Virus record (IMG/VR): IMGVR_UViG_3300020192_000213 | Span: 1-24,254 of that record | DNA length: 24,254 nucleotides | Strand: one strand, 5' to 3' | DNA from: a virus | Shown: positions 1,281 to 23,513 of the stretch, one piece after another | Layout: each line of letters starts with the position of its first letter | How positions within the stretch are numbered: the first letter of the stretch is position 1 | Translations under genes and position numbers: made by a program | The notes under the pieces: generated by a model | Seen by the model: the letters and a program-made list of their open reading frames with translations, nothing else | Database searches by the model: none | Told to the model about the DNA's origin: nothing

Positions 1281-3053
1281 ATGAGTCTTCGCGTAACGCA
1301 ACAATATGTCGATGTAATCGGAGAGAATACTGGCGGTAAGCTCCGAGCTACTCAACTGTACGTTGACGTTATCGGAACTCCAACGATCGAGCACCTTGCA
1401 GACGCCACGAGCACGCTGTCGCTCACATCTACGGCGGAGAATCAAGGTACTGTGCTGGGTGATGCAACCAGTACGCTATCCCTTACCCAGGAGGCGGTGT
1501 CAAACATCAAGAGTGTTAGTGCTACTAACACACTGACGCTGACGCAGTCTGCTGAGGGTATGGCGGCGAACTTGAATGCGGCGGCGGTCAGTACGCTGAC
1601 CTTGACGCAATCGGCGAACAACAGTTCGCTGACAGTCCAAGCTGCATCAAGCGCCATCACGTTCACGCAGTTTGCGACGAGCGGCCATCTTGTTGCAGCC
1701 GCCGGCTCGGTTATCGAACTCGACCACTTAGCTTACTCTGCTAACGAATACCCCGTGGCTGGGAGCCATCTGGCGTCGTTGACCCATTCGGCTGTGTGCA
1801 TGAACCTTCATGTGTACGCCGAGAGTGAGCTTGAACTTGTATCACTTGGCGATCACAGTGTCAAGGCTCGGTCGGCGACCAGCGAACTGAGCTTGACTCA
1901 GTCTGCTTTTGCCGAGCGTGTCTTCGTCGTTACCAGCGTGTTGAATCTGACTCAGTCAGCAACACAGGGTATCCTGACGGCTGCGGCCGAGGATCAGTTA
2001 GAACTGTCGCAGGAGGCGCGTGTCACCAACATCAATGTGGTGGCAAGCTCGACTGACCTGACCCTGACTCAGGAAGCCACGTCGAACATCAAGATGCTGT
2101 CGGTCACGAGCACGCTCGTGCTCGAACAGTCCGTCACGGTGCTTCGTCCGTTCTACGTCTCGGCGATCAGTGAGTTGCAGACGGTGGAGTCGGTGTTCGA
2201 CCTGGACACCTTCACCTTCGTCGATGTCATCACAGGTCTTACCGACGCTGCTAGTGCCCAGTTGGACGGGCCGCGATCGCTGTCACACATCATCTCGTTC
2301 TCGCAGACGGCCACGGCCAGTCTGGTGAGTGTCGATGCGATTGCTGCTGACGCCGAGAGCGTGTTGAGCCTGACGCAAGAAGCTCGGATCAGCATTCAGG
2401 AAGCAGCGATCTCGGCGATCGTCTTCACTCAGGTGGCCACAGCCGTCGTGAGTGAAGTCGCGACGAGCACGTTGTCCTTGTCGCAGTCCGCCAGCTTCAA
2501 CATTGTTCGGGGTGCGATCGCTGCGGCGAGCACGCTGGACATCAAGCAGGCGGTGGCCTTCGTCCTGGACCGAACGGACACGCTCTGTTCGTACAGCCCG
2601 TTCGTTGGTAGCTCCAGCGATCCCGATGCACCAACGCCGCCTCCCTCGACCTACCCGGCCGCGGGCGGCACTCCTGGCTTCCGGCTTCAATACCCGGAGA
2701 CTGGGTCAGTCACAGACGAGCTAATTCTCCGAGCACCCAACCTCGGGAACATCGACCGTCTGTCAATGGTGAGGATCAACCGAGAGACCCGTGGTGGGAC
2801 GCTCATTATCTACGCCGATCCAATCTGGCCGAAGGTGGAAACGCTCCTGCTGACGTTCTCCGGCTTGTCAGAGGATGAAGCACAAGACCTGCTCGATTGG
2901 ATGGAGACTTATCTCGGACAGGAGATTCGATTGATCGACTGGGAGGACCGTGTGTGGAAGGGCGTGATCGTCAACCCGCAGGACCCAGTCGTGCAGGATG
3001 GAAAGGGCTGCCAGTTCACGGCCAGCTTCGAGTTTGAAGGGAGCAAGGTATGA
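1281..3053 (+). CDS. Repeat-rich phage tail protein
   Basis: The product is 590 residues in three parts. Residues 1-38 hold two copies of a TQ-YVDVIG motif. Residues 39 to about 430 contain some 18 degenerate repeats of about 19 residues with the core S-T-L-x-L-T-Q-x-A, for example STLTLTQSA and STLSLTQEA. A Pro-rich hinge (DAPTPPPSTYP) follows, then a compact C-terminal domain of about 120 residues that resembles the whole of the next small protein. The repeats alternate polar and hydrophobic residues and would suit a beta-solenoid or stacked-strand shaft. The gene lies between a lectin-like virion gene and tail genes and overlaps the next start by 4 nt (ATGA), so it is probably a tail or fibre component. 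A GAGG about 10 nt upstream is the likely ribosome binding site. Confidence 0.75.
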   Translation: MSLRVTQQYVDVIGENTGGKLRATQLYVDVIGTPTIEHLADATSTLSLTSTAENQGTVLGDATSTLSLTQEAVSNIKSVSATNTLTLTQSAEGMAANLNAAAVSTLTLTQSANNSSLTVQAASSAITFTQFATSGHLVAAAGSVIELDHLAYSANEYPVAGSHLASLTHSAVCMNLHVYAESELELVSLGDHSVKARSATSELSLTQSAFAERVFVVTSVLNLTQSATQGILTAAAEDQLELSQEARVTNINVVASSTDLTLTQEATSNIKMLSVTSTLVLEQSVTVLRPFYVSAISELQTVESVFDLDTFTFVDVITGLTDAASAQLDGPRSLSHIISFSQTATASLVSVDAIAADAESVLSLTQEARISIQEAAISAIVFTQVATAVVSEVATSTLSLSQSASFNIVRGAIAAASTLDIKQAVAFVLDRTDTLCSYSPFVGSSSDPDAPTPPPSTYPAAGGTPGFRLQYPETGSVTDELILRAPNLGNIDRLSMVRINRETRGGTLIIYADPIWPKVETLLLTFSGLSEDEAQDLLDWMETYLGQEIRLIDWEDRVWKGVIVNPQDPVVQDGKGCQFTASFEFEGSKV

Positions 3054-3448
3054 GCTTTCAATTAGAGGCCCCTTACCCGGGCATCCAGACGACTTCGATT
3101 CTTGCGAACCCACAGTTCAGCAACGGCGAAGGTCTGGCGGACTCAGTAGCTTCCAAGCGTGCCACGGATGGCACGCTCTACACCTACGTGAAGCGGAGGA
3201 ACGGTCGGCGAAAGCTGAACTGGACCTTCCTCCTCGTGCGCCCCAAGGCACTCGAACTTCGCGCCTTCTTGACTTCTTACTTCGCATCCGATGTCCGTGT
3301 AACTGACCATAGTGGTCGCGTGTGGATCGGTAACTTCACGAACAACCCGTTCGAGTTTACTACTGATCGTCGCGCGGCTCCTGACCGTGGTGATCTGCGA
3401 GGCGAGTTGCAGACCATCACTCTTGAATTCGAGGGAGTAGAACAATGA
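3050..3448 (+). CDS. Small phage tail protein, paralogue of the preceding C-terminal domain
   Basis: The product is 132 residues. Its second half (a helical segment PKALELRAFLTSY, then RVWIGNFTNNP and a closing TITLEFEGVEQ) lines up with the C-terminal domain of the preceding gene (VETLLLTFSGLSEDEAQDLL, RVWKGVIVNPQDP, FEFEG). The two probably arose by duplication and may sit together in the tail. It overlaps its neighbours by 4 nt on both sides. No catalytic motif or membrane segment is visible. The tail role is inferred from the neighbours and the shared domain. Confidence 0.7.
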   Translation: MSFQLEAPYPGIQTTSILANPQFSNGEGLADSVASKRATDGTLYTYVKRRNGRRKLNWTFLLVRPKALELRAFLTSYFASDVRVTDHSGRVWIGNFTNNPFEFTTDRRAAPDRGDLRGELQTITLEFEGVEQ

Positions 3449-6189
3449 GGACCATTTCCGCGGGTGGCTTAGCTAAGCTAGCCCAGCAGAAAGGTACCGA
3501 GCCGATCGTCATCATTGAAGTGGACTGGGGCGGCAGCGCCCCGGTCTCCTATGCTGACCGGACCATCGGTGCCATCAAGGGTAAGATCATTCAACTGGGT
3601 GATCTCGATAACGTAATCGACATCCTTAACAGTAACAGTTCGCAATCTTTGGAGGTAGTGCTGGATGACACCGACGGAGCCATTAAAGGCATCATGGACA
3701 CCCAGGACATCCACCAACGGACTGTTCGTGTATACCAGTGGTTTGACGGGTTGGCGTTGTCCGACAAGTTCCTGCTCTTCGCAGGAAAGCTCAGCAGTCC
3801 AGTCCTCTGGTCCGAAGCCGACCGAACTGTCAAGTTCACCGTCGTCTCCCAACTCGAAGACAAGGAATTCGGCTTCAGCGCCGAAGAAGGACAGTTCCCG
3901 TTCATTCCCAAGGACATGGTAGGGAAGCCGTGGCCGGTGATCTTCGGGAAGTGTCTCGACGTGCCGGCACTCCAGGTGAACAAAGCCGTGAGCGGCTCCA
4001 CCTTGTGTGGCCTCGGGATCATCAGTGGAAAGGAACTCCACGGACAGATTGGGATCGGTGGCCAAGACTGCGGTCTCGGCATGTCGATCGCGATGATGAG
4101 CGCCCAGATCAGCTTCCTCAACATCACCTCGGCGGCATGGGAGGACGAGGACCCAGTCAAGTCGCTCCAACTGTTTGACCAGGCGAACGCGATCCGTGCT
4201 CAGATGGCTGCCTCCGCTGGTAGCCAGAATGACCAGCAAGCGTGCGCCAGTAACCTTCGCACTCGCAAGATGGAAGAAGCGGAAGAGCAAGGTCTTGGCT
4301 GTAACCCGGTCCGCATCCTCGGCGGTGAGGACTTCCCACAGAACACGCCTATCACGTTGAACATCAACGGCGGCTTGTTCACCGGGGTCATGGCGAACGA
4401 CTCGTTCACGATCTCCACCCGTCAGCACTTGGAGAATGATGCCAAGGCCGAGTCGATCTTTAGTGGTGTCGAGGAGTCCCAATGCGAGACACCTACGGCC
4501 AACCAGAACTTCGACTTCAGCATGGAAGTCCCTCCCGGTAAGGGCGACCTGGGTGGCTCGACGATCCGGCGAGAAGGCATCATCATCTGTACCATCAACG
4601 CGAAGTCGCGACCCGCGACTCCGCAAGTGGCACAACACTTCTGGGCCGACGCCGGTAGCCGAGTGGTGCTCCATTCGGATGAGCCGATCACCTACATCGT
4701 CAGCATCACCCCGGGCACCGTCCTAGCTGTCAAGGCGTTCAAGACGCTCAACAGCGAGCGGAAGCTCGTGAACGTACCGAACGACCTGTGGTACGTCGAG
4801 ACAAAAACTTACGGAACGATCACGGCCGTCCAGGTTGTGGTGCGTAAGCCACTCTCGACGATTGTCGATCAGGGATGGGACGATGACCTGTACATCACGT
4901 TCGAGTCCACCATCGGGCCGAACACGGTGGACATCATGGAGTACATCATCGACAACTGGACCGACCTCGGTTGGGACACAGCGAGCTTCAACGCCGTCAA
5001 GGCGAAGCTCGTCAACAAGCCGATGAACTTCCCCGTCCTGGAGCGTAAGAACACGCTAGAGATTTTGAACGAGATGGCCTACCAAGCGTGCTGCGCCCTG
5101 TGGCTCAGCAACGGCATCTTCTTCATCAAGTATCTGGCGGAAGAGCCGACATCAGATCAGACGATCACCGTCGCGGACATTGAGTCCGGCTCGGTGGAAG
5201 TCGGCCTGACGCCGACCGAAGACATTGTGACCTCGTGGGTTATCACGTGGTGGCTGAGCTATGCGGCTGAAGAGCCGGAGAAGATTCTGCTCAAGCACAA
5301 TGTCAACAAGTACGGCACCAAGAAGGGCGAGTACGAGTTTTACTGCTACAACCAGCCCGACATCATCTACAAGAACGCCACGTTCTGGATGATCCGGAAG
5401 GCCCACACGTTCAAGAAGCTCCGATTCAAGGGCTTCCTCAACTTGCTGAAGCTGGAGACCTACGACACGATCACGCTCAACCTGCCGTCCTACGTGGCCG
5501 CGGGCAACGTGAAGGGCGTCGTGGAGCAAGCCAGCTACGACTCGGAATCGAACACGATGCAGTTCGAGGTCTGGGTCCCGGTGGAAGTCGGGACCATGAC
5601 CAAGCTGGACGAAGCCTGGCCGGCAAGTCTCGCCGCGTCGTTCCAGTTCCCCACGGCTCACGACGTGGCTAATGGCCACGCTGGAGGGGCTGGGATCGGC
5701 ATTGGAGCGATCGGAGAACTACCCATCGGATACACGGATGGACTGCCGGATGGCGGCACCGTGATCGTGGGTGGCCCCAACGTGGCGTTCCGCCAGAAGG
5801 CCGACTGGGGCGACCGGACTCCTAGCGATTCCGGCTTCACGCCACAGACGATCATCCCCGGCGACGTGTTCGCCGAGGTGAACAGCCAGCAGAATCCGAA
5901 CCCCGACCTGTCGCTGAACTACATCGACCCGCTGCCGGCCGCGCAAGTGACCGACATCCCCAGCGGGACGGTCACGATCGACATCCGGAAGACGAGGATC
6001 ATCGACTCGGACAATCCTGGTGTGGAGGCGAAGCTCGACACGATCATCAGGAAGATCGCGGACGAAGAGTTGTTCCTGGACACGGAGTCCAAGTTCAGCG
6101 ATGGTACGAACGACGAGACCTTTGCGTTCGAGTTCGACGACGAGGAGTCGAAGTTCGGTGCCAAGATCGCATTCTTGAAGGACACCTAA
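3445..6189 (+). CDS. Large tail-tip / baseplate hub-like protein
   Basis: The product is 914 residues, the largest in the left module. Residues 1 to about 170 are beta-rich, with strands such as SLEVVLDDTDG, TVRVYQWFDG and LLFAGKLSSPVLW, followed by GKPWPVIFGK. This organisation is typical of phage proteins at the tail tip or baseplate hub that follow small distal-tail proteins. The middle is mixed alpha/beta with hydrophobic beta segments (FFIKYLAEEPTSDQTITVADI). The stretch near residues 735-790 is very Gly- and Pro-rich (GAGIGIGAIGELPIGYTDG) and looks flexible. The C-terminus is acidic and charged. It overlaps the upstream gene by 4 nt, and its last base is the first base of the protease start codon. 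The assignment rests on size, position and strand pattern; no enzyme motif was found. Confidence 0.65.
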   Translation: MRTISAGGLAKLAQQKGTEPIVIIEVDWGGSAPVSYADRTIGAIKGKIIQLGDLDNVIDILNSNSSQSLEVVLDDTDGAIKGIMDTQDIHQRTVRVYQWFDGLALSDKFLLFAGKLSSPVLWSEADRTVKFTVVSQLEDKEFGFSAEEGQFPFIPKDMVGKPWPVIFGKCLDVPALQVNKAVSGSTLCGLGIISGKELHGQIGIGGQDCGLGMSIAMMSAQISFLNITSAAWEDEDPVKSLQLFDQANAIRAQMAASAGSQNDQQACASNLRTRKMEEAEEQGLGCNPVRILGGEDFPQNTPITLNINGGLFTGVMANDSFTISTRQHLENDAKAESIFSGVEESQCETPTANQNFDFSMEVPPGKGDLGGSTIRREGIIICTINAKSRPATPQVAQHFWADAGSRVVLHSDEPITYIVSITPGTVLAVKAFKTLNSERKLVNVPNDLWYVETKTYGTITAVQVVVRKPLSTIVDQGWDDDLYITFESTIGPNTVDIMEYIIDNWTDLGWDTASFNAVKAKLVNKPMNFPVLERKNTLEILNEMAYQACCALWLSNGIFFIKYLAEEPTSDQTITVADIESGSVEVGLTPTEDIVTSWVITWWLSYAAEEPEKILLKHNVNKYGTKKGEYEFYCYNQPDIIYKNATFWMIRKAHTFKKLRFKGFLNLLKLETYDTITLNLPSYVAAGNVKGVVEQASYDSESNTMQFEVWVPVEVGTMTKLDEAWPASLAASFQFPTAHDVANGHAGGAGIGIGAIGELPIGYTDGLPDGGTVIVGGPNVAFRQKADWGDRTPSDSGFTPQTIIPGDVFAEVNSQQNPNPDLSLNYIDPLPAAQVTDIPSGTVTIDIRKTRIIDSDNPGVEAKLDTIIRKIADEELFLDTESKFSDGTNDETFAFEFDDEESKFGAKIAFLKDT

Positions 6190-6755
6190 TGAGACTTTCG
6201 AGGGAGAGCGTTGACCGCTTCTTCGATCATAACATCCACATCGAAAGTCGCACGATCTTCATCGGCGATGGTGGGGACGACGAGATCGACGGAGTGATTG
6301 CTAATGGAGTCATCAAGGCGTTTCATCTCCTTGGTGAGTCCACTGACAAGCCGATCAAAGTGTTCATCAACAGCTTTGGCGGCTGCTGGTTTGGAGGGAT
6401 GGCCATCTACGATGCCATCAAGCATTGCCCGTGCGAAGTGAATGCCTACGTGATAGGCTCCGCGATGAGTATGGGCAGCGTGATCCTCCAGGCGGCGGAC
6501 ACAAGAGTGATCTACCCAAACGCGACTCTGATGATCCATGATGGATACGAGACGCGAGTGGGTGACACTCCGCAGACATTCGCGAACTGGGCTGAGTTCA
6601 GCAAGAAGGGTCGCGAGATGATGTACCGAATCTACTCAGGAAGATCGGGTAAGCCGGTTGCCTTTTGGCGCAAGAAGTGCGGGTCGGACTTCATCCTAAC
6701 GTCGCAGGAAGCAAAAGAGTTAGGACTGGTCGATTCCATCTATGGAGAGACATAG
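6189..6755 (+). CDS. ClpP-fold serine protease
   Basis: The product is 188 residues, close to the length of bacterial ClpP (about 193 mature). The family landmarks are in order: the oxyanion-region glycines in INSFGG (residues 60-65), the nucleophile Ser94 in SAMSMGS, His117 in MIHDGYE, and Asp167 in GSDFILTSQEAKELGLVDSI, which aligns with the [20 protein letters not shown] end of E. coli ClpP. The full Ser-His-Asp triad is therefore present. ClpP-like proteases in phages often mature the prohead, but they normally sit near portal and capsid genes. Here the gene is the last of a tail operon, just before a terminator. The substrate is unknown; processing of a tail protein or acting as a stand-alone peptidase are both possible. 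The 3' end overlaps the convergent HNH gene by 16 nt. Confidence 0.88.
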   Translation: MRLSRESVDRFFDHNIHIESRTIFIGDGGDDEIDGVIANGVIKAFHLLGESTDKPIKVFINSFGGCWFGGMAIYDAIKHCPCEVNAYVIGSAMSMGSVILQAADTRVIYPNATLMIHDGYETRVGDTPQTFANWAEFSKKGREMMYRIYSGRSGKPVAFWRKKCGSDFILTSQEAKELGLVDSIYGET

Positions 6756-7282
6756 CAACCGTTTCGATAGGCCCCGGGCAGCTTAGGCTGCACCGGGGCT
6801 TTTTCGTTTGGAAAATTCAGCCAGGCGAACTCGCCCCACCAATCTACGGCAACCGCATCATACGCTCGGGCAGCAGTTACCGGATCGTCGAACTGACCAA
6901 TCGCGTAATTGTACCCACTGACGTAGATTTGTGATAACCATTTTCCATTAGTCTTGATGAACGACACACCCTTGTATCCAGACGTGTTGTTTTCCGGTAG
7001 ACCTCTGTTGGCCGCGTTCTGGACTGCGGTGGCTAGCCTCAGGTTTTCTCGCTGGTTGTTGAGTGTGTTCCGATCCTTGTGGTCAATTCGTCTTCCGTCC
7101 GTCTCAACGCCAGCCATCGCCATGATGGCCTTGCTGAGGCGAATGAATTTCACTTTCCCGTCGATTCGCACCGACCGATGAGGATAGCCATTGTTGTACG
7201 ACCACTTGAACTGGTTTAGTTGTTCAAAGAACTCGTCATCAACAAGGGCTTCCTCATTCTGTGAAAGTGGAAGCTTCTTCAT
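6740..7282 (-). CDS. HNH homing endonuclease with AP2 DNA-binding domain
   Basis: The product is 180 residues from the ATG at 7280-7282. That start overlaps the upstream stop as ATGA and has AAGGA about 8 nt before it, so it is preferred over a longer frame reaching 7363. Residues 45-95 hold the HNH_3 nuclease signature: DHKD (67-70), then NTLNNQRENLRLAT with the conserved Asn residues. Residues 101-158 form an AP2 domain (SGYKGVSF, KWLSQIYVSG, AARAYDAVAVDWWGEFAWLNFP). This pairing is typical of free-standing phage homing endonucleases, which cut DNA to spread themselves. The last 22 residues lie beyond the AP2 domain and are encoded across the + strand terminator and into the 3' end of the protease gene. 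The gene is the last of the leftward operon. Confidence 0.9.
   Translation of the reverse strand: MKKLPLSQNEEALVDDEFFEQLNQFKWSYNNGYPHRSVRIDGKVKFIRLSKAIMAMAGVETDGRRIDHKDRNTLNNQRENLRLATAVQNAANRGLPENNTSGYKGVSFIKTNGKWLSQIYVSGYNYAIGQFDDPVTAARAYDAVAVDWWGEFAWLNFPNEKAPVQPKLPGAYRNGCYVSP
6771..6804 (+). terminator. Rho-independent terminator of the tail/protease operon
   Basis: Arms GCCCCGG (6771-6777) and CCGGGGC (6793-6799), with inner arms GCAGC and GCTGC around a TTAG loop, are followed by TTTTT at 6800-6804. It begins 15 nt after the protease stop codon. It lies inside the 3' end of the convergent HNH gene. The reverse strand has no T run after the hairpin, so it should act mainly on + strand transcripts. 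Confidence 0.9.
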
Positions 7283-7707
7283 TGCCCATCCTTGAACGGA
7301 CAACCAAGACACGTCTCGACCAGGACCTTCTTCTGGTAGGTCTCGGCTTGCGAGCAGTTGCACACGACGTTCACGTCAACGGCCCCGTCGAGGTTCGCCT
7401 TGAGACCGTACATTCCCTTCCGGCACGCCGGCCACAAAGGTCGGAACAGGAAGGGATTCTCAGCGTCTCGCTGGTAGCCGCTGATCTCCGGCGGCTGGGC
7501 GTCGGCCTTCTCGTACTCGATGCTGCCGTCCTCGTGGACCTTGGGCGGCTTGAACAGCCGGCCGGCCACGCGAGGAACAGCATTCATCAAGACCTGCAAC
7601 GGGTTCTTGAACTGCTTGGCACCATAGACGATCTGGATGCCAGGCGCATCCGAAGGAGTCACGCTACCAATTCCGGTCAAGGGGCCACTACCATTACAAC
7701 AGCCCAT
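7279..7707 (-). CDS. Unknown Cys-rich phage protein
   Basis: The product is 142 residues. AGGAGA lies about 7 nt before the ATG. It carries several Cys: MGCCNG at the start, CRKGMYG near residue 96, and a C-terminal group CNCSQ with CLGCPF about 20 residues later. The last group has the spacing of a small metal site, but this is a guess. There is no signal peptide or membrane segment. It is translated between the coiled-coil protein and the HNH gene and overlaps the latter by 4 nt. I do not recognise a characterised family. Confidence 0.6.
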   Translation of the reverse strand: MGCCNGSGPLTGIGSVTPSDAPGIQIVYGAKQFKNPLQVLMNAVPRVAGRLFKPPKVHEDGSIEYEKADAQPPEISGYQRDAENPFLFRPLWPACRKGMYGLKANLDGAVDVNVVCNCSQAETYQKKVLVETCLGCPFKDGQ

Positions 7708-14963: not shown

Positions 14964-15476
14964 ATGAAGCCAGTCGCGATCCTCATCACCGAACCATCGG
15001 TGAACTTCTCCAAGCTGGTGTCGATCTCACACCAAGCGTTGGGCTACTCAGTCGCGGCGTCCAGTGACGCCAGCAACAAGACGCAGCACGCTGCGGAGAA
15101 GTTTCTGTCCTGTCTGGCTGCCCTGAGAGACCAACACGCAACCGTGGGTCTCTCCCCGAGCCTGCTGGCTCACGTGTCCTTCTCGATCCTCGTGGTCGCC
15201 GAAGAGTTGGACACCATCGAAGTCCTCGAATGCACCGGCGGGATGCCACTGGTGAGCACGGAGACTGTCGCACGAGGAGTTCAGTTGACGGTCCTGACAG
15301 GAACACTCGCCCAGTGGCGAGACGCCGTGGTAACCGGTAGTCGCAGGACAGGGGCAGTGCAAGCGTTGTACTGCCAGATCATGGGCGAGTTTGAAGCTCG
15401 CAATCTGAACGTCTGGCAAGACTTCAGTAAGAAACCATCCGGGACCATCTTCCTACTTGAGGATAAGCGCAAATGA
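14964..15476 (+). CDS. ThyX-like protein lacking the catalytic signature
   Basis: The product is 170 residues, shorter than the usual 210-250 of flavin-dependent thymidylate synthases. Several family landmarks appear in order: an opening strand and helix (ILITEPSVNFSKLVSISHQA), the H-x-SF strand (LLAHVSFSILVV, residues 67-78) and a C-terminal LTGTLAQWRD...AVQALYCQIM, which recalls the ThyX segment T-x-x-x-R-x-L-x-x-F-L...AQ-E-I. The RHRxxSxNxxSxRY signature is not there; the equivalent stretch is TGGMPLVSTETVARG. If this fold assignment is right, the protein probably does not make dTMP and has kept only a structural or binding role. There is no clear ribosome site before the ATG, and a hairpin lies just upstream. 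It overlaps the helicase gene by 4 nt. Confidence 0.5.
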   Translation: MKPVAILITEPSVNFSKLVSISHQALGYSVAASSDASNKTQHAAEKFLSCLAALRDQHATVGLSPSLLAHVSFSILVVAEELDTIEVLECTGGMPLVSTETVARGVQLTVLTGTLAQWRDAVVTGSRRTGAVQALYCQIMGEFEARNLNVWQDFSKKPSGTIFLLEDKRK

Positions 15477-17440
15477 CTGAAGTGATGGATTGTAAGCTGA
15501 TTACGGAGACTGCTAAGGGCACCCGTATTAAGTCCGCCGCGCAGCTTGCTTTTAACGACGGCCGCATCGAGTTCATCAAGTCGCCCTTCTCGTTGAAGAA
15601 CGAGATCAAGGCGATGAAGGGGAGCAAGTGGCACGGCTTCGACGAGAAGCCCCGCAAGATTTGGTCAGTCGAAGACTGCCCGCGGAACCGCTTCCAGCTT
15701 TCAGCGTTGATGGGCAACGACCCCTACGAGTGGTTCGATCGCGACCTTGAGAAGCAGAAGTACGAACGCCCGTTGATGGATCACCAATGTGATCTCGCGG
15801 ACGCTGGCCTAACGTACCACTACCAGATTTGGGCGGCCGAGATGGGCGTCGGTAAGACGCTCGCGGCCATCGAAGTCATCGAGCGATCTGGTGTGAAGGA
15901 ATGGTTCTACGTCGCTCCTAAGGCGGTGCTGAAAGCAATCGCCCGCGAGTTTAAGAAGTGGGGCCTCGACCCGTCCATCAAGGTGGAGCTTATCACCTAC
16001 GAAGGGCTAAACACCCTAATCGACAGTTGGCCCAAAGACAAGGTCCCGCCGCAAGGTGTGATCTACGACGAGTCCAGCCGTCTGAAGACGGAAGGATCGC
16101 AACGCACACGAGCAGCCCAGAAGCTCGCGGACATGATCCGCGCCCACTTCAACTACGACGGCTTCGTGATCCTGATGAGCGGCACGCCGTCGCCGAAGAC
16201 ACCGGTGGACTGGTGGAGCCAAGCCGAGATCGCCTGGCCGGGCTTCCTACGAGAAGGCAGCCCGAAGGCTCTCGAACAACGGCTCGCCTTCATGGTCAAG
16301 GAGGAGTTCGACTCCGGACCGTTCATGCGACGGATCGGCTGGAAGGACGACGAGTTCAAGTGTAACACGTGTGGTGCTCGCTATGAGGATGGCCCGCACG
16401 ACATGGAACAGATGCTCGAAGAGGGGCAACAGTTTCACCAGTTCGAGGGAAGCAAGAACGAAGTCGAACTCATGTTCGACCGCCTCATCGGCCTGGTCAT
16501 CGTCAAGCGGAAGAAGGAGTGCTTGAGCCTGCCAGACAAACGGTATCGCAAGATCGTCTGCAAGCCCAACAAGTCGGTGATGCGAGTCGCGCAAGCGATC
16601 GTCAACTCCGCAGAGAGTGCGATGCAGGGCAACCTCCAGCTTCGCGAACTCTCGGATGGCTTCCAGTACCGCGAAGTCGAAGACGGTAAGGTCCCCTGCC
16701 GACACTGTGCTGCCACCGGTGAAGTCGCTGAGTGGTACGACCGCGAAGACAAGGAGCGAACCTTCTCTGCGATCGACATGCTCAGCGCCGAGAAGGTACA
16801 GCGACTTGAGAAGCACATGATCGAATGTCCCGCCTGCGAGGGGACGAAGGAAGTCAAGAAGCTCAAGCGGGTAACGAAGGAAGTGCCCTGCCCGAAGGAT
16901 GACGCGCTCAATCAACTCCTGGAGGAGAACGACGAGCACGGCCGCATTGTGATCTTCGCCGGGTTCACCGGCTCCGTTGATCGCTGTGTGCGGCTATGCA
17001 CCAAGAAGAACTGGGATGTCGTGCGATGCGACGGCCGCGGCTTCGAGGTGTTCAAGTGCGACTCCAACGGTGATGTCAAGATTCTCAGCGGTGTGGATGC
17101 CCTGGACTACTGGGCAGATCGCGAGAACTTGCGAGTCGCGTTCGTCGCTCACCCGGAGTCCGGGGGAATGGGACTGACGCTGACCGAAGCCTGCATGGCC
17201 GTGTTCTGGTCGAACTCGTTCAAGCCGGAGTACCGGACGCAGTCTGAAGATCGTATTCACCGGCCGGGTATCGACGAGAACCTCGGTGCCACGATCGTAG
17301 ACCTCATCCATCTACCGTCTGACGACCGAGTCCTCCAGGTCATCCAGCAGGATCGCCATCTGGAACTGATGACGATGGGTGAGTTCAAGGATGTGCTCGA
17401 CATCGAAGTCGAAGGCGAAGAGTTGACGCTAGCAGCATAA
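15473..17440 (+). CDS. SNF2-type helicase with Cys-rich insertion
   Basis: The product is 655 residues. Residues 17-80 resemble the HARP-like domain of phage SNF2/SMARCAL1-type proteins. Helicase motifs follow: motif I AEMGVGKT (122-129), DEAD-box-like YDES (198-201), SGTP (236-239), the motif V region GGMGLTL (564-570), and motif VI QSEDRIHRPG (590-599) with Arg594 and Arg597. Between the two RecA lobes are Cys pairs C297/C300, C409/C412 (CRHCAATGEV) and C452/C455 (CPACEGTKEV), which look like zinc-ribbon or DnaJ-like Zn sites. Such enzymes use ATP to move on duplex DNA and anneal or remodel branched DNA. The gene overlaps its upstream neighbour by 4 nt and sits in the replication operon. 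Confidence 0.85.
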   Translation: MTEVMDCKLITETAKGTRIKSAAQLAFNDGRIEFIKSPFSLKNEIKAMKGSKWHGFDEKPRKIWSVEDCPRNRFQLSALMGNDPYEWFDRDLEKQKYERPLMDHQCDLADAGLTYHYQIWAAEMGVGKTLAAIEVIERSGVKEWFYVAPKAVLKAIAREFKKWGLDPSIKVELITYEGLNTLIDSWPKDKVPPQGVIYDESSRLKTEGSQRTRAAQKLADMIRAHFNYDGFVILMSGTPSPKTPVDWWSQAEIAWPGFLREGSPKALEQRLAFMVKEEFDSGPFMRRIGWKDDEFKCNTCGARYEDGPHDMEQMLEEGQQFHQFEGSKNEVELMFDRLIGLVIVKRKKECLSLPDKRYRKIVCKPNKSVMRVAQAIVNSAESAMQGNLQLRELSDGFQYREVEDGKVPCRHCAATGEVAEWYDREDKERTFSAIDMLSAEKVQRLEKHMIECPACEGTKEVKKLKRVTKEVPCPKDDALNQLLEENDEHGRIVIFAGFTGSVDRCVRLCTKKNWDVVRCDGRGFEVFKCDSNGDVKILSGVDALDYWADRENLRVAFVAHPESGGMGLTLTEACMAVFWSNSFKPEYRTQSEDRIHRPGIDENLGATIVDLIHLPSDDRVLQVIQQDRHLELMTMGEFKDVLDIEVEGEELTLAA

Positions 17441-21005: not shown

Positions 21006-23513
21006 ATGAGCTTGCTCTTCATTGATAGCGAAACGTGCGGCTTGCACTCCATGATGGTGCTCCTCCAGTACGCTGAAGACGATGGTCCGATCCATCTCTA
21101 CAACGTCTGGAAGGAGCCGGTGTGGAAGACGCTCGAACTTCTGGAGTGGATCGCCCAGAACACGGTCGTCGGGTTTAACCTGGCGTTCGACTGGTTCCAC
21201 GTCGTGAAGATTCACACGATCTGGTCTCTGCTACCGCAGGACTGGATTCCGGAAGAGCACATTGAAGAGATCGCCATGATGGAGCCGAAGGGCCGCGACG
21301 GGCTATGCCTCAAGCCGGCGGCCGCATGTGATCTGTTGCTCCATTCGCGAAAGAACCAATACCAAGCACTGATGGCCCGCGAGGACATCCGCATTCGGCG
21401 AGTACCGACGGTACTCGCTTATTCATTGGCGGACGAGTTGGAGAAGCGTGTCCAGATCGACGGCATCTTTTTCGCTCGCTCGAAGGACCCGGAAGCGCCA
21501 CGTTGGAAGGTCTACGACATCTTCAAGAAGAACGTCCTCGACGAGGACTTCAAGGATGTCGTGCTGAAGTTCAAGCCGGCCGGCGGGTTGAAGTTCCTGG
21601 CTGAGTACGCCTTGGGCTTCGTCCCGAAGTTCCACTTCTCGGACGTTGAACTCGACAAGTCGTACCGGCCTGTCGAGCTTGGCTACGCGCCGATGGCACT
21701 CGCGATCAGCAGTCCCGAGAAGGGCTGGGAAGTCGAAGTCATCGAGAAGAAGAAGGCCCGCGACGGTAAGACGCTCAAGAAGATCAAGAAGAAGGGCTTC
21801 GCTTGGCCGGCGAAGATTCAGGCTCACATCGACCACTGGGCGATGAACGAGCCTGCCCGTGAGTACGCCTCCGACGACATCCTGTACACCCGGGAATTGT
21901 ACAAACACTTCGGCAGCCCGGCTGCCGGCGACGACGACTCTACTCTGGCCTGCATGGTCCCCATCGTGAGGTGGAGAGGGTTCGAGATCGACCGCGAGGG
22001 TATGGAAGGACTGTTGCAGAAGGCCCAGGACACGGTCGCGAATGCACCGTGTAACATCAACAAGCCGACCGCAGTCCGCGCCTACCTGACTGAGGTGATG
22101 GATGAGATCGAAGCGGTCTTCATTGAGGATACCACGAAGAAGGCGAAGCTCGAAGGTATCGCTACCTGGACGGCCGACGATGACTTGTCGCCGCATCCCG
22201 CGGCGATCCGCGCGAGAGCGATCCTGAATGTGAAGCACGCCTCCAAGGAGATCGAGCTTTACAACAAGCTGCTCATCGCGGGACGCTTCCATGCGTCCTT
22301 TAACGTCATCGGAACGATGTCTAGTCGTATGTCCGGCGGCGACGGGCTGAACGCTCAGGCAATCAAGAAGACGAAGGAGGTACGCAAGAACTTCCCATTG
22401 AAGTGGGACGGCTACGAGCTATGCGGCGGTGACTTTGATGCGTTCGAGGTGACCCTCGCCGACGCCGTCTACAACGATCCGCAGCTTCGCAAGGCGTTGG
22501 TCACCTTCATCGACTGCCATAAGTGCAAGGCGACTGGCAAGGTGAAACCGCTGTGCAAGTCCTGCAAGGAGTTGAAGAAGGCCAAGAAGGAACTACTGCC
22601 TGACTGTCCTGGTTGTGCCTTGATGGAGGATGAAGTCTGCGGCGGCTGTGAAGGCGCGAAGAAGACCACGAAGAAGATTCACGGTCTGTTCGGCATGGCG
22701 TTGTTCCCGGGCAAGACGTATGAGGAAATCCTCGCGTCTGAAGGCACGGACCACGACATGTACACGATGGCGAAGAGCGGTGTGTTCGCGATGATCTACG
22801 GCGGTAACGCCGAGACACTTCATCGCAACCTGGGTATTCCTTTGGACGTTGCCCAAGCTGCTTACGAGATGTGGGGGAAGATGTTCCCCGGCATCGAGAA
22901 GGCTCGTCAACGCATCTTCCGGAACTTCTGCTCGATGCGTCAGCCGGACGGCCGGCAAGTCCTGTGGGAGGACCCGGCCGACTACTGCGAGACGTTCCTC
23001 GGCTTCCGCCGGTACTTCACGCTGGAGAACAAAATCTGCCGCGAGTTGTACCGGATGGCTCAGTCACCTCCGAAGGAATGGAAGTCCTGCCCGGCCAAGG
23101 TTGTGCGACGGCAGCGAGTTCAGACGGCTGGCGGGGCGGTGTCCTCAGCCCTGTACGGGGCTGCGTTCTCCCTCCAGCAGACGAACATGCGGGCCGCGGC
23201 CAACCACGAGATTCAGTCTCCTGGTGGCGAGATCACCAAGCGGGTGCAACGGAAGATTTGGGACCTGCAACCTGCCGGTCTCGACACGCTGTTCGTCGCA
23301 CCCATGAACATCCACGACGAACTGGAATGCGTCACGCACCCGTCGTACATCGACCCGGTCGCGGAAGCGGTCCGGGAAGGCGTGGAATCCTACCGCGCGA
23401 AGGTCGCGCTAATCGGCATGACCTGGAATAAGGGAATGCTGAACTGGGCAGAGAAGAAGGGTGGCTCGGTGACGGTGAAGATCAAACCGCCGGAGCTACA
23501 AAATGCCGTTTAG
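21006..23513 (+). CDS. Family A DNA polymerase with Cys-rich insertion
   Basis: The product is 835 residues. The N-terminal proofreading domain has ExoI IDSET (Asp7, Glu9), ExoII GFNLAFD (Asp62) and ExoIII YASDD (Tyr287, Asp291). The polymerase domain has SSRMSGGDGLNAQAI (439-453), motif A GGDFDAFEV with Asp476, motif B around MAKSGVFAMIYGG (588-600) and motif C NIHDELE (His770, Asp771, Glu772). All catalytic acids are present. It copies the phage genome 5' to 3' with proofreading. Between motifs A and B, residues 504-548 carry four Cys pairs (CHKC, CKSC, CPGC, CGGC), an insertion not found in Pol I or T7 polymerase. The start is 4 nt after the upstream stop. Confidence 0.93.
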   Translation: MSLLFIDSETCGLHSMMVLLQYAEDDGPIHLYNVWKEPVWKTLELLEWIAQNTVVGFNLAFDWFHVVKIHTIWSLLPQDWIPEEHIEEIAMMEPKGRDGLCLKPAAACDLLLHSRKNQYQALMAREDIRIRRVPTVLAYSLADELEKRVQIDGIFFARSKDPEAPRWKVYDIFKKNVLDEDFKDVVLKFKPAGGLKFLAEYALGFVPKFHFSDVELDKSYRPVELGYAPMALAISSPEKGWEVEVIEKKKARDGKTLKKIKKKGFAWPAKIQAHIDHWAMNEPAREYASDDILYTRELYKHFGSPAAGDDDSTLACMVPIVRWRGFEIDREGMEGLLQKAQDTVANAPCNINKPTAVRAYLTEVMDEIEAVFIEDTTKKAKLEGIATWTADDDLSPHPAAIRARAILNVKHASKEIELYNKLLIAGRFHASFNVIGTMSSRMSGGDGLNAQAIKKTKEVRKNFPLKWDGYELCGGDFDAFEVTLADAVYNDPQLRKALVTFIDCHKCKATGKVKPLCKSCKELKKAKKELLPDCPGCALMEDEVCGGCEGAKKTTKKIHGLFGMALFPGKTYEEILASEGTDHDMYTMAKSGVFAMIYGGNAETLHRNLGIPLDVAQAAYEMWGKMFPGIEKARQRIFRNFCSMRQPDGRQVLWEDPADYCETFLGFRRYFTLENKICRELYRMAQSPPKEWKSCPAKVVRRQRVQTAGGAVSSALYGAAFSLQQTNMRAAANHEIQSPGGEITKRVQRKIWDLQPAGLDTLFVAPMNIHDELECVTHPSYIDPVAEAVREGVESYRAKVALIGMTWNKGMLNWAEKKGGSVTVKIKPPELQNAV

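Follow-up and report, generated by a model that had tools for sequence, protein, structure and literature searches.

The polymerase gene and its inserted module

The stretch of DNA analysed here, called the window below, comprises all 24,254 bases of IMG/VR record IMGVR_UViG_3300020192_000213 (positions 1 to 24,254). The gene at 21006..23513 encodes a family A DNA polymerase of 835 residues with a 3'-5' exonuclease domain. A preliminary description of this DNA had already labelled the protein a DNA polymerase, and this is confirmed by Pfam, where PF00476 (DNA_pol_A) is matched above its gathering score (62.9 bits vs a cut-off of 34.3), by an agreeing match to PHROG 17 (DNA polymerase), by structural comparison and by residue conservation. 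The AlphaFold2 model, based on an alignment of 71 sequences, has a pLDDT of 91.8 and a pTM of 0.90. Its best solved Foldseek match is the Klenow fragment (1kfs, E 4e-14), and the model of a relative, L034, matches Bst Pol I with a VIA Z of 19.7; both comparisons cover the polymerase fold only, as the inserts discussed below are not represented in the matches.

IMG/VR and a single scan of GTDB genomes supplied the relatives, of which 113 distinct polymerases of more than 630 residues were aligned. All features of the polymerase and helicase genes given here are on the plus strand. Motif A (GGDFDAFEVTLADAVY, residues 474-489, 22425..22472) contains D476 and E481, which are invariant in the 113 relatives. 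Motif B, the O helix (residues 586-599, 22761..22802), has K590, F594 and Y598, and motif C (NIHDEL, residues 768-773, 23307..23324) is assigned from residue conservation. All of these polymerase-domain catalytic residues, including H770-D771-E772, are present and conserved in the relatives, and the same is true of the exonuclease residues D7, E9, D62, Y287 and D291. One deviation is seen in motif B (22761-22799), where the tyrosine Y586 replaces the arginine corresponding to R754 of Klenow. A tyrosine is found in 112/112 relatives covering this site, i.e. the arginine that contacts the dNTP phosphates in Pol I and T7 is a tyrosine in the whole window clade.

Downstream of motif A, and ahead of motif B, there is a module with four CxxC motifs at a site that we call S2 (residues 500-556, 22503..22673). 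It consists of CHKC (residues 504-507, 22515-22526), CKSC (517-520, 22554-22565), CPGC (534-537, 22605-22616) and CGGC (545-548, 22638-22649), and the chain then rejoins the polymerase fold at the segment KIHGLFGMALFPG (22674..22712). The histidine of this segment, H559, is kept in 112 of the 113 relatives and aligns by motif with His734 of Klenow, a residue that contacts the dNTP, which places the module just ahead of that position. The earlier description, with four CxxC motifs within residues 504-548 and a location between motifs A and B, is thus confirmed. When the window protein was shuffled 20,000 times, no shuffle had four CxxC motifs within 45 residues, and the maximum of three was reached in 12 shuffles.

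The view that the module is an insertion also stands. Relatives that lack it have a five-residue linker at S2 and read L-SGKK-IHALFG or LSGKK-IHALFGMALFPG through the same point, and the polymerase of phage HMO-2011, discussed below, has no S2 insert either. Window residues 500-556 are therefore an insertion between the helix that follows motif A and the KIH segment. The zinc-less relatives that have only the linker keep the catalytic residues, which means that the module is optional. As had been stated, Pol I and the T7-type enzymes have no such metal-site-like module. In the AlphaFold2 model the region is predicted as an ordered insert, with pLDDT values of about 80-93.

The nature of the insert becomes clearer from the nearest relative of the window polymerase, L001 (on the same contig as L049), which is 68% identical. 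All eight module cysteines are identical in the two proteins, compared to only 19 of the 47 other module residues, while the flanks agree at 84/100 and 67/83 positions; it is thus the cysteines that are selected. The module of L001 has intact DnaJ-type CxxCxGxG repeats and exceeds the cut-off of PF00684 (DnaJ_CXXCXGXG; 34.0 vs 32.7). The window knuckles read CHKCKATG, CKSCKELK, CPGCALME and CGGCEGAK, with most of the DnaJ glycines lost, and the Pfam search of the window gave no PF00684 match over the cut-off in the polymerase. We infer from these comparisons that the window carries at S2 a degraded zinc element of the DnaJ type (CxxCxGxG), the cysteines of which are still under selection.

Two other inserts were seen in this part of the protein. 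L001/L049 and L150 are among the few relatives with an extra insert of ~35 residues just ahead of the motif A strand (APDLSLIRDRLEAFLGLDDEALEAHWHYVKACYLGVD). In L168 and L171, the S2 insert (CERCDGQ...CKSCG) looks by eye like another zinc-ribbon type rather than the DnaJ type, which suggests that unrelated zinc elements may have used the same S2 loop.

The same replication region also contains a gene for an SNF2-type helicase (15473..17440; phrog_62, 1.7e-51) with CNTC, CRHCAATG and CPACEGTK motifs. Its CxxC pairs start at residues 297, 409 and 452, and the hairpin is located at about 16697-16849. This hairpin is present in 28 of 30 helicase relatives, including those encoded beside polymerases without any module. 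Being near-universal, the DnaJ-type hairpin of the helicase is a standing feature of the replication region, and what varies is whether the polymerase has one. Elsewhere in the window, an ORF on the minus strand (6740-7363) resembles by eye an HNH/AP2 homing-type endonuclease; it adjoins a ClpP-like protease gene (6189-6755).

Two insert sites in the polymerase clade

A second site, S1, is found in a thumb loop that follows the TTKKAKLEGI helix, about 30 residues ahead of GRFHASFN. By motif, this helix corresponds to STSEEVLEEL in the thumb of Pol I. In the window polymerase S1 is empty (residues 387-398, 22164..22199).

Knuckle-bearing inserts occur at S1 only in 59 of the 113 polymerases, at both sites in 28, at S2 only in six (the window polymerase included) and at neither in 20. 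The preliminary description had treated a cysteine block common to a large polymerase clade as evidence against a special module, and here the outcome is divided: zinc-type modules are found at S2 in 34 of the 113 relatives and at S1 in 87, and 93 have one at either or both sites. Most inserts (31/34 at S2 and 84/87 at S1) have an even CxxC knuckle count, as expected if one metal site takes two knuckles. Together with the selective conservation of the cysteines, this is consistent with the earlier suggestion that the module has enough of them for two sites.

On a tree built without the insert columns, the minimum number of parsimony changes is 10 for S1 and 13 for S2, compared to averages of 24 and 29, respectively, for shuffled labels. 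The states of the two sites are hence partly inherited, yet they have often been gained or lost. In the sister of the window polymerase both sites are filled, and the most direct reading is therefore that the window lineage has lost its S1 hairpin. Judged from these alignments, the module of the window belongs to a set of exchangeable inserts that occupy two sites, and represents one of its states. The original reading thus holds in part, for an inserted metal-site-like module, which is now refined to a worn DnaJ-type element that can be swapped between two loops. In one further relative, L174, the tblastn match (3001-6537) spans 3.5 kb vs an ORF of 2.7 kb, and there may be an additional segment or an intervening sequence near the start of the ORF.

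It should be stressed that a family A polymerase with DnaJ-type repeats is already known from phages. In the HMO-2011-type marine phages, two CXXCXGXG motifs form part of a 'partial DnaJ central domain' of the polymerase (PMC9038755, PMC6918029; NC_021864 gp12), and the likeness to the present clade is that this domain is inserted between exonuclease and palm. The enzyme belongs, however, to another polymerase lineage, accompanied by a DnaB-type helicase, and it lacks a J domain as well as the S2 insert. Its hairpin is in the thumb region, whereas the window polymerase has S1 empty and its module at S2 instead. According to the helix motifs, the HMO-2011 hairpin precedes the STSKTNLELLE helix while S1 follows the equivalent helix; hhalign overlays the two hairpins, and the pairing made by both MAFFT and hhalign conflicts with the surrounding helix motifs. 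The HMO-2011 hairpin is accordingly in or adjoining the S1 region, with the helix motifs and hhalign disagreeing on the exact site. Between the HMO-2011 polymerase and the window clade there is only a weak profile match. A tblastn search of the window polymerase against 50,697 phage records gave no match at 1e-5, whether to the HMO-2011 type or to any other; relaxing the threshold to E 10 brought up partial matches only, which among the matches listed cover at most 33% of the query at 23-30% identity.

The central domain of DnaJ (Hsp40) itself, PF00684, shares with the inserts the paired CxxCxGxG knuckles, and the sister module is above the Pfam cut-off. The differences are that the element here is within a polymerase, that the window copy has few glycines and no Pfam match, and that the substrate-binding C-terminal domains of DnaJ are absent.

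A J domain within S1, and the hosts of the clade

In five relatives (L030, L031, L033, L034 and L035) a J domain sits between two knuckles of the S1 hairpin, as in CGRC...AAYRRLAKQYHPDHGGNAEDFKRLQEAFE...CARCGGTG. Pfam DnaJ (PF00226) scores 32.5-44.9 bits in these proteins vs a cut-off of 27.8, and the HPD motif is present in 5/5. In L034, the only one modelled, the J region is predicted to form helices at 428-437, 445-459 and 467-482, which is the expected three-helix J fold, and by sequence it matches the solved J domains of DNAJA1, CbpA and SV40 T antigen. In the window polymerase, with its empty S1, PF00226 has no match.

The J domain requires five changes on the tree, no fewer than with shuffled labels, and its five bearers are scattered among close relatives without it; this points to a cassette that was acquired recently or is easily lost. 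The identical L035 protein was found in contigs from two data sets, which argues against an assembly chimera. All catalytic residues are kept in L031, L033, L034 and L035. The fifth polymerase, L030 (6001-8139), lacks the segment running from motif B to motif C, and may represent a broken gene or a misassembly. L060 was considered as another bearer and rejected, as its HPD string belongs to KRPHPDCPEC of the S2 insert. Phage contigs often encode stand-alone J proteins, and no further J-bearing polymerase was found there; all the others were short stand-alone proteins.

Regarding the hosts, relatives were found in contigs of Planctomycetota MAGs. Two of these contigs, L099 (444 kb) and L096 (290 kb), also hold genes for ATP synthase subunits, ilvD and transporters, and these cellular genes indicate that the polymerase copies there are integrated, i.e. 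belong to prophages. PF07596, used as a host test, had no match on the prophage contigs themselves. Clade members also occur in two Chloroflexota MAGs and in one Pontiellaceae MAG. At least some members of the clade thus likely have Planctomycetota as their hosts, and the window virus probably infects bacteria of this phylum.

Possible roles of the inserts

The explanation that we favor, with a probability of roughly 0.6, is that the module is a zinc-stabilised DnaJ-type hairpin in a surface loop, providing an accessory contact surface that is outside catalysis and grips DNA or a replisome partner. The S2 module is inserted in the surface loop between the palm helix that follows motif A and the fingers helix with the dNTP-contacting histidine, where it most likely serves to hold DNA or a replisome protein in a lineage-specific manner. 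The fast change of the non-cysteine residues would then reflect lineage-specific partners, and the SNF2 helicase, with the same type of hairpin, would be the first candidate partner. Zinc binding, the contact function and the recruitment of DnaK considered below are all predictions from sequence.

Such a contact role would resemble that of T7 DNA polymerase, in which an inserted thumb loop holds the thioredoxin of the host. T7 polymerase, too, is a phage enzyme of family A that recruits a host protein by means of an additional loop segment, and the T7 loop can serve as a model for how S1 with a J domain could work. In the five relatives, the nested J domain would, by prediction, draw host DnaK to the polymerase, and with this domain, added in a few relatives, the enzyme may be able to hold on to a helper protein of the host. 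The T7 loop differs in that it has no zinc motif, binds thioredoxin and is another loop of the thumb, and S2 is outside the thumb altogether. DNA polymerase theta, a eukaryotic repair enzyme of family A, has clade-specific thumb and palm loops that alter DNA handling; unlike the present inserts, these have no cysteine knuckles. In the open-licence papers searched, we found neither a J-domain polymerase nor a family A enzyme with a zinc insert between its motifs A and B, and no report of the S2 site, of two-site swapping or of a nested J domain.

Some observations count against the contact role, namely that many relatives do without any module and that the window polymerase has no J domain. With few DnaJ glycines left, the module of the window may also have drifted from the function of the intact form. 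In one alternative, the inserts would have no job, surface loops simply tolerating small self-folding elements that drift in and out. The patchy distribution, with its 13 changes at S2, the fast-changing non-cysteine residues and the fact that the window polymerase has lost the S1 hairpin still present in its sister all agree with this possibility. We nevertheless consider it unlikely, because all eight cysteines are kept while their neighbors change, the same two loops are reused repeatedly with the same hairpin type, and the helicase hairpin is so widely kept (28/30). The repeated gain and loss of modules, and their occurrence also at the thumb site, speak against a redox or metal sensor whose cysteines would shed the metal under oxidation or zinc shortage and thereby switch the polymerase. 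The even knuckle count is, moreover, what a structural site requires, and although the module adjoins the dNTP-contacting His559, a conceivable place for a conformational switch, we find such a sensor very improbable. CxxC pairs are able to ligate iron-sulphur clusters too, but a cluster in place of zinc is hardly to be expected here, as the CxxCxGxG knuckle of the relatives is the zinc signature of DnaJ.

The alternative that the inserts derive from DnaJ and mimic it, so that Hsp70 is brought to the replisome to assist in assembly, remodelling or polymerase folding, draws on the true J domains with HPD in the five polymerases. A phage J domain that acts on host DnaK is known from Rki of phage RB43, which like the J-bearing relatives has such a domain but is a stand-alone protein and not part of a polymerase (PMC3486835), and lambda replication requires DnaK/DnaJ according to work cited in PMC9038755. 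The J domain is, however, present in only 5/113 polymerases and absent from that of the window, and such zinc hairpins are widespread as a fold element. In DnaJ, furthermore, the stimulation of DnaK comes from the J domain and not from the zinc domain alone. On balance, we regard mimicry as rather unlikely. A more far-reaching proposal is that of a cassette system, in which two loops take zinc hairpins and the tip of the thumb hairpin takes a J domain, making the polymerase an Hsp70 co-chaperone; this we regard as tentative and rather doubtful. It is with similar reserve that we suggest, along the same line, that host DnaK would be brought to the fork and that the S2 module of the window would be one docking piece.

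A DNA polymerase that contains its own J domain would link phage replication with the host Hsp70 system within a single polypeptide. The close relatives with and without J domain or zinc hairpins constitute natural matched pairs for the function of the inserts. The results suggest, finally, that the thioredoxin loop of T7 is not the sole route to host- or DNA-binding inserts in phage family A polymerases.
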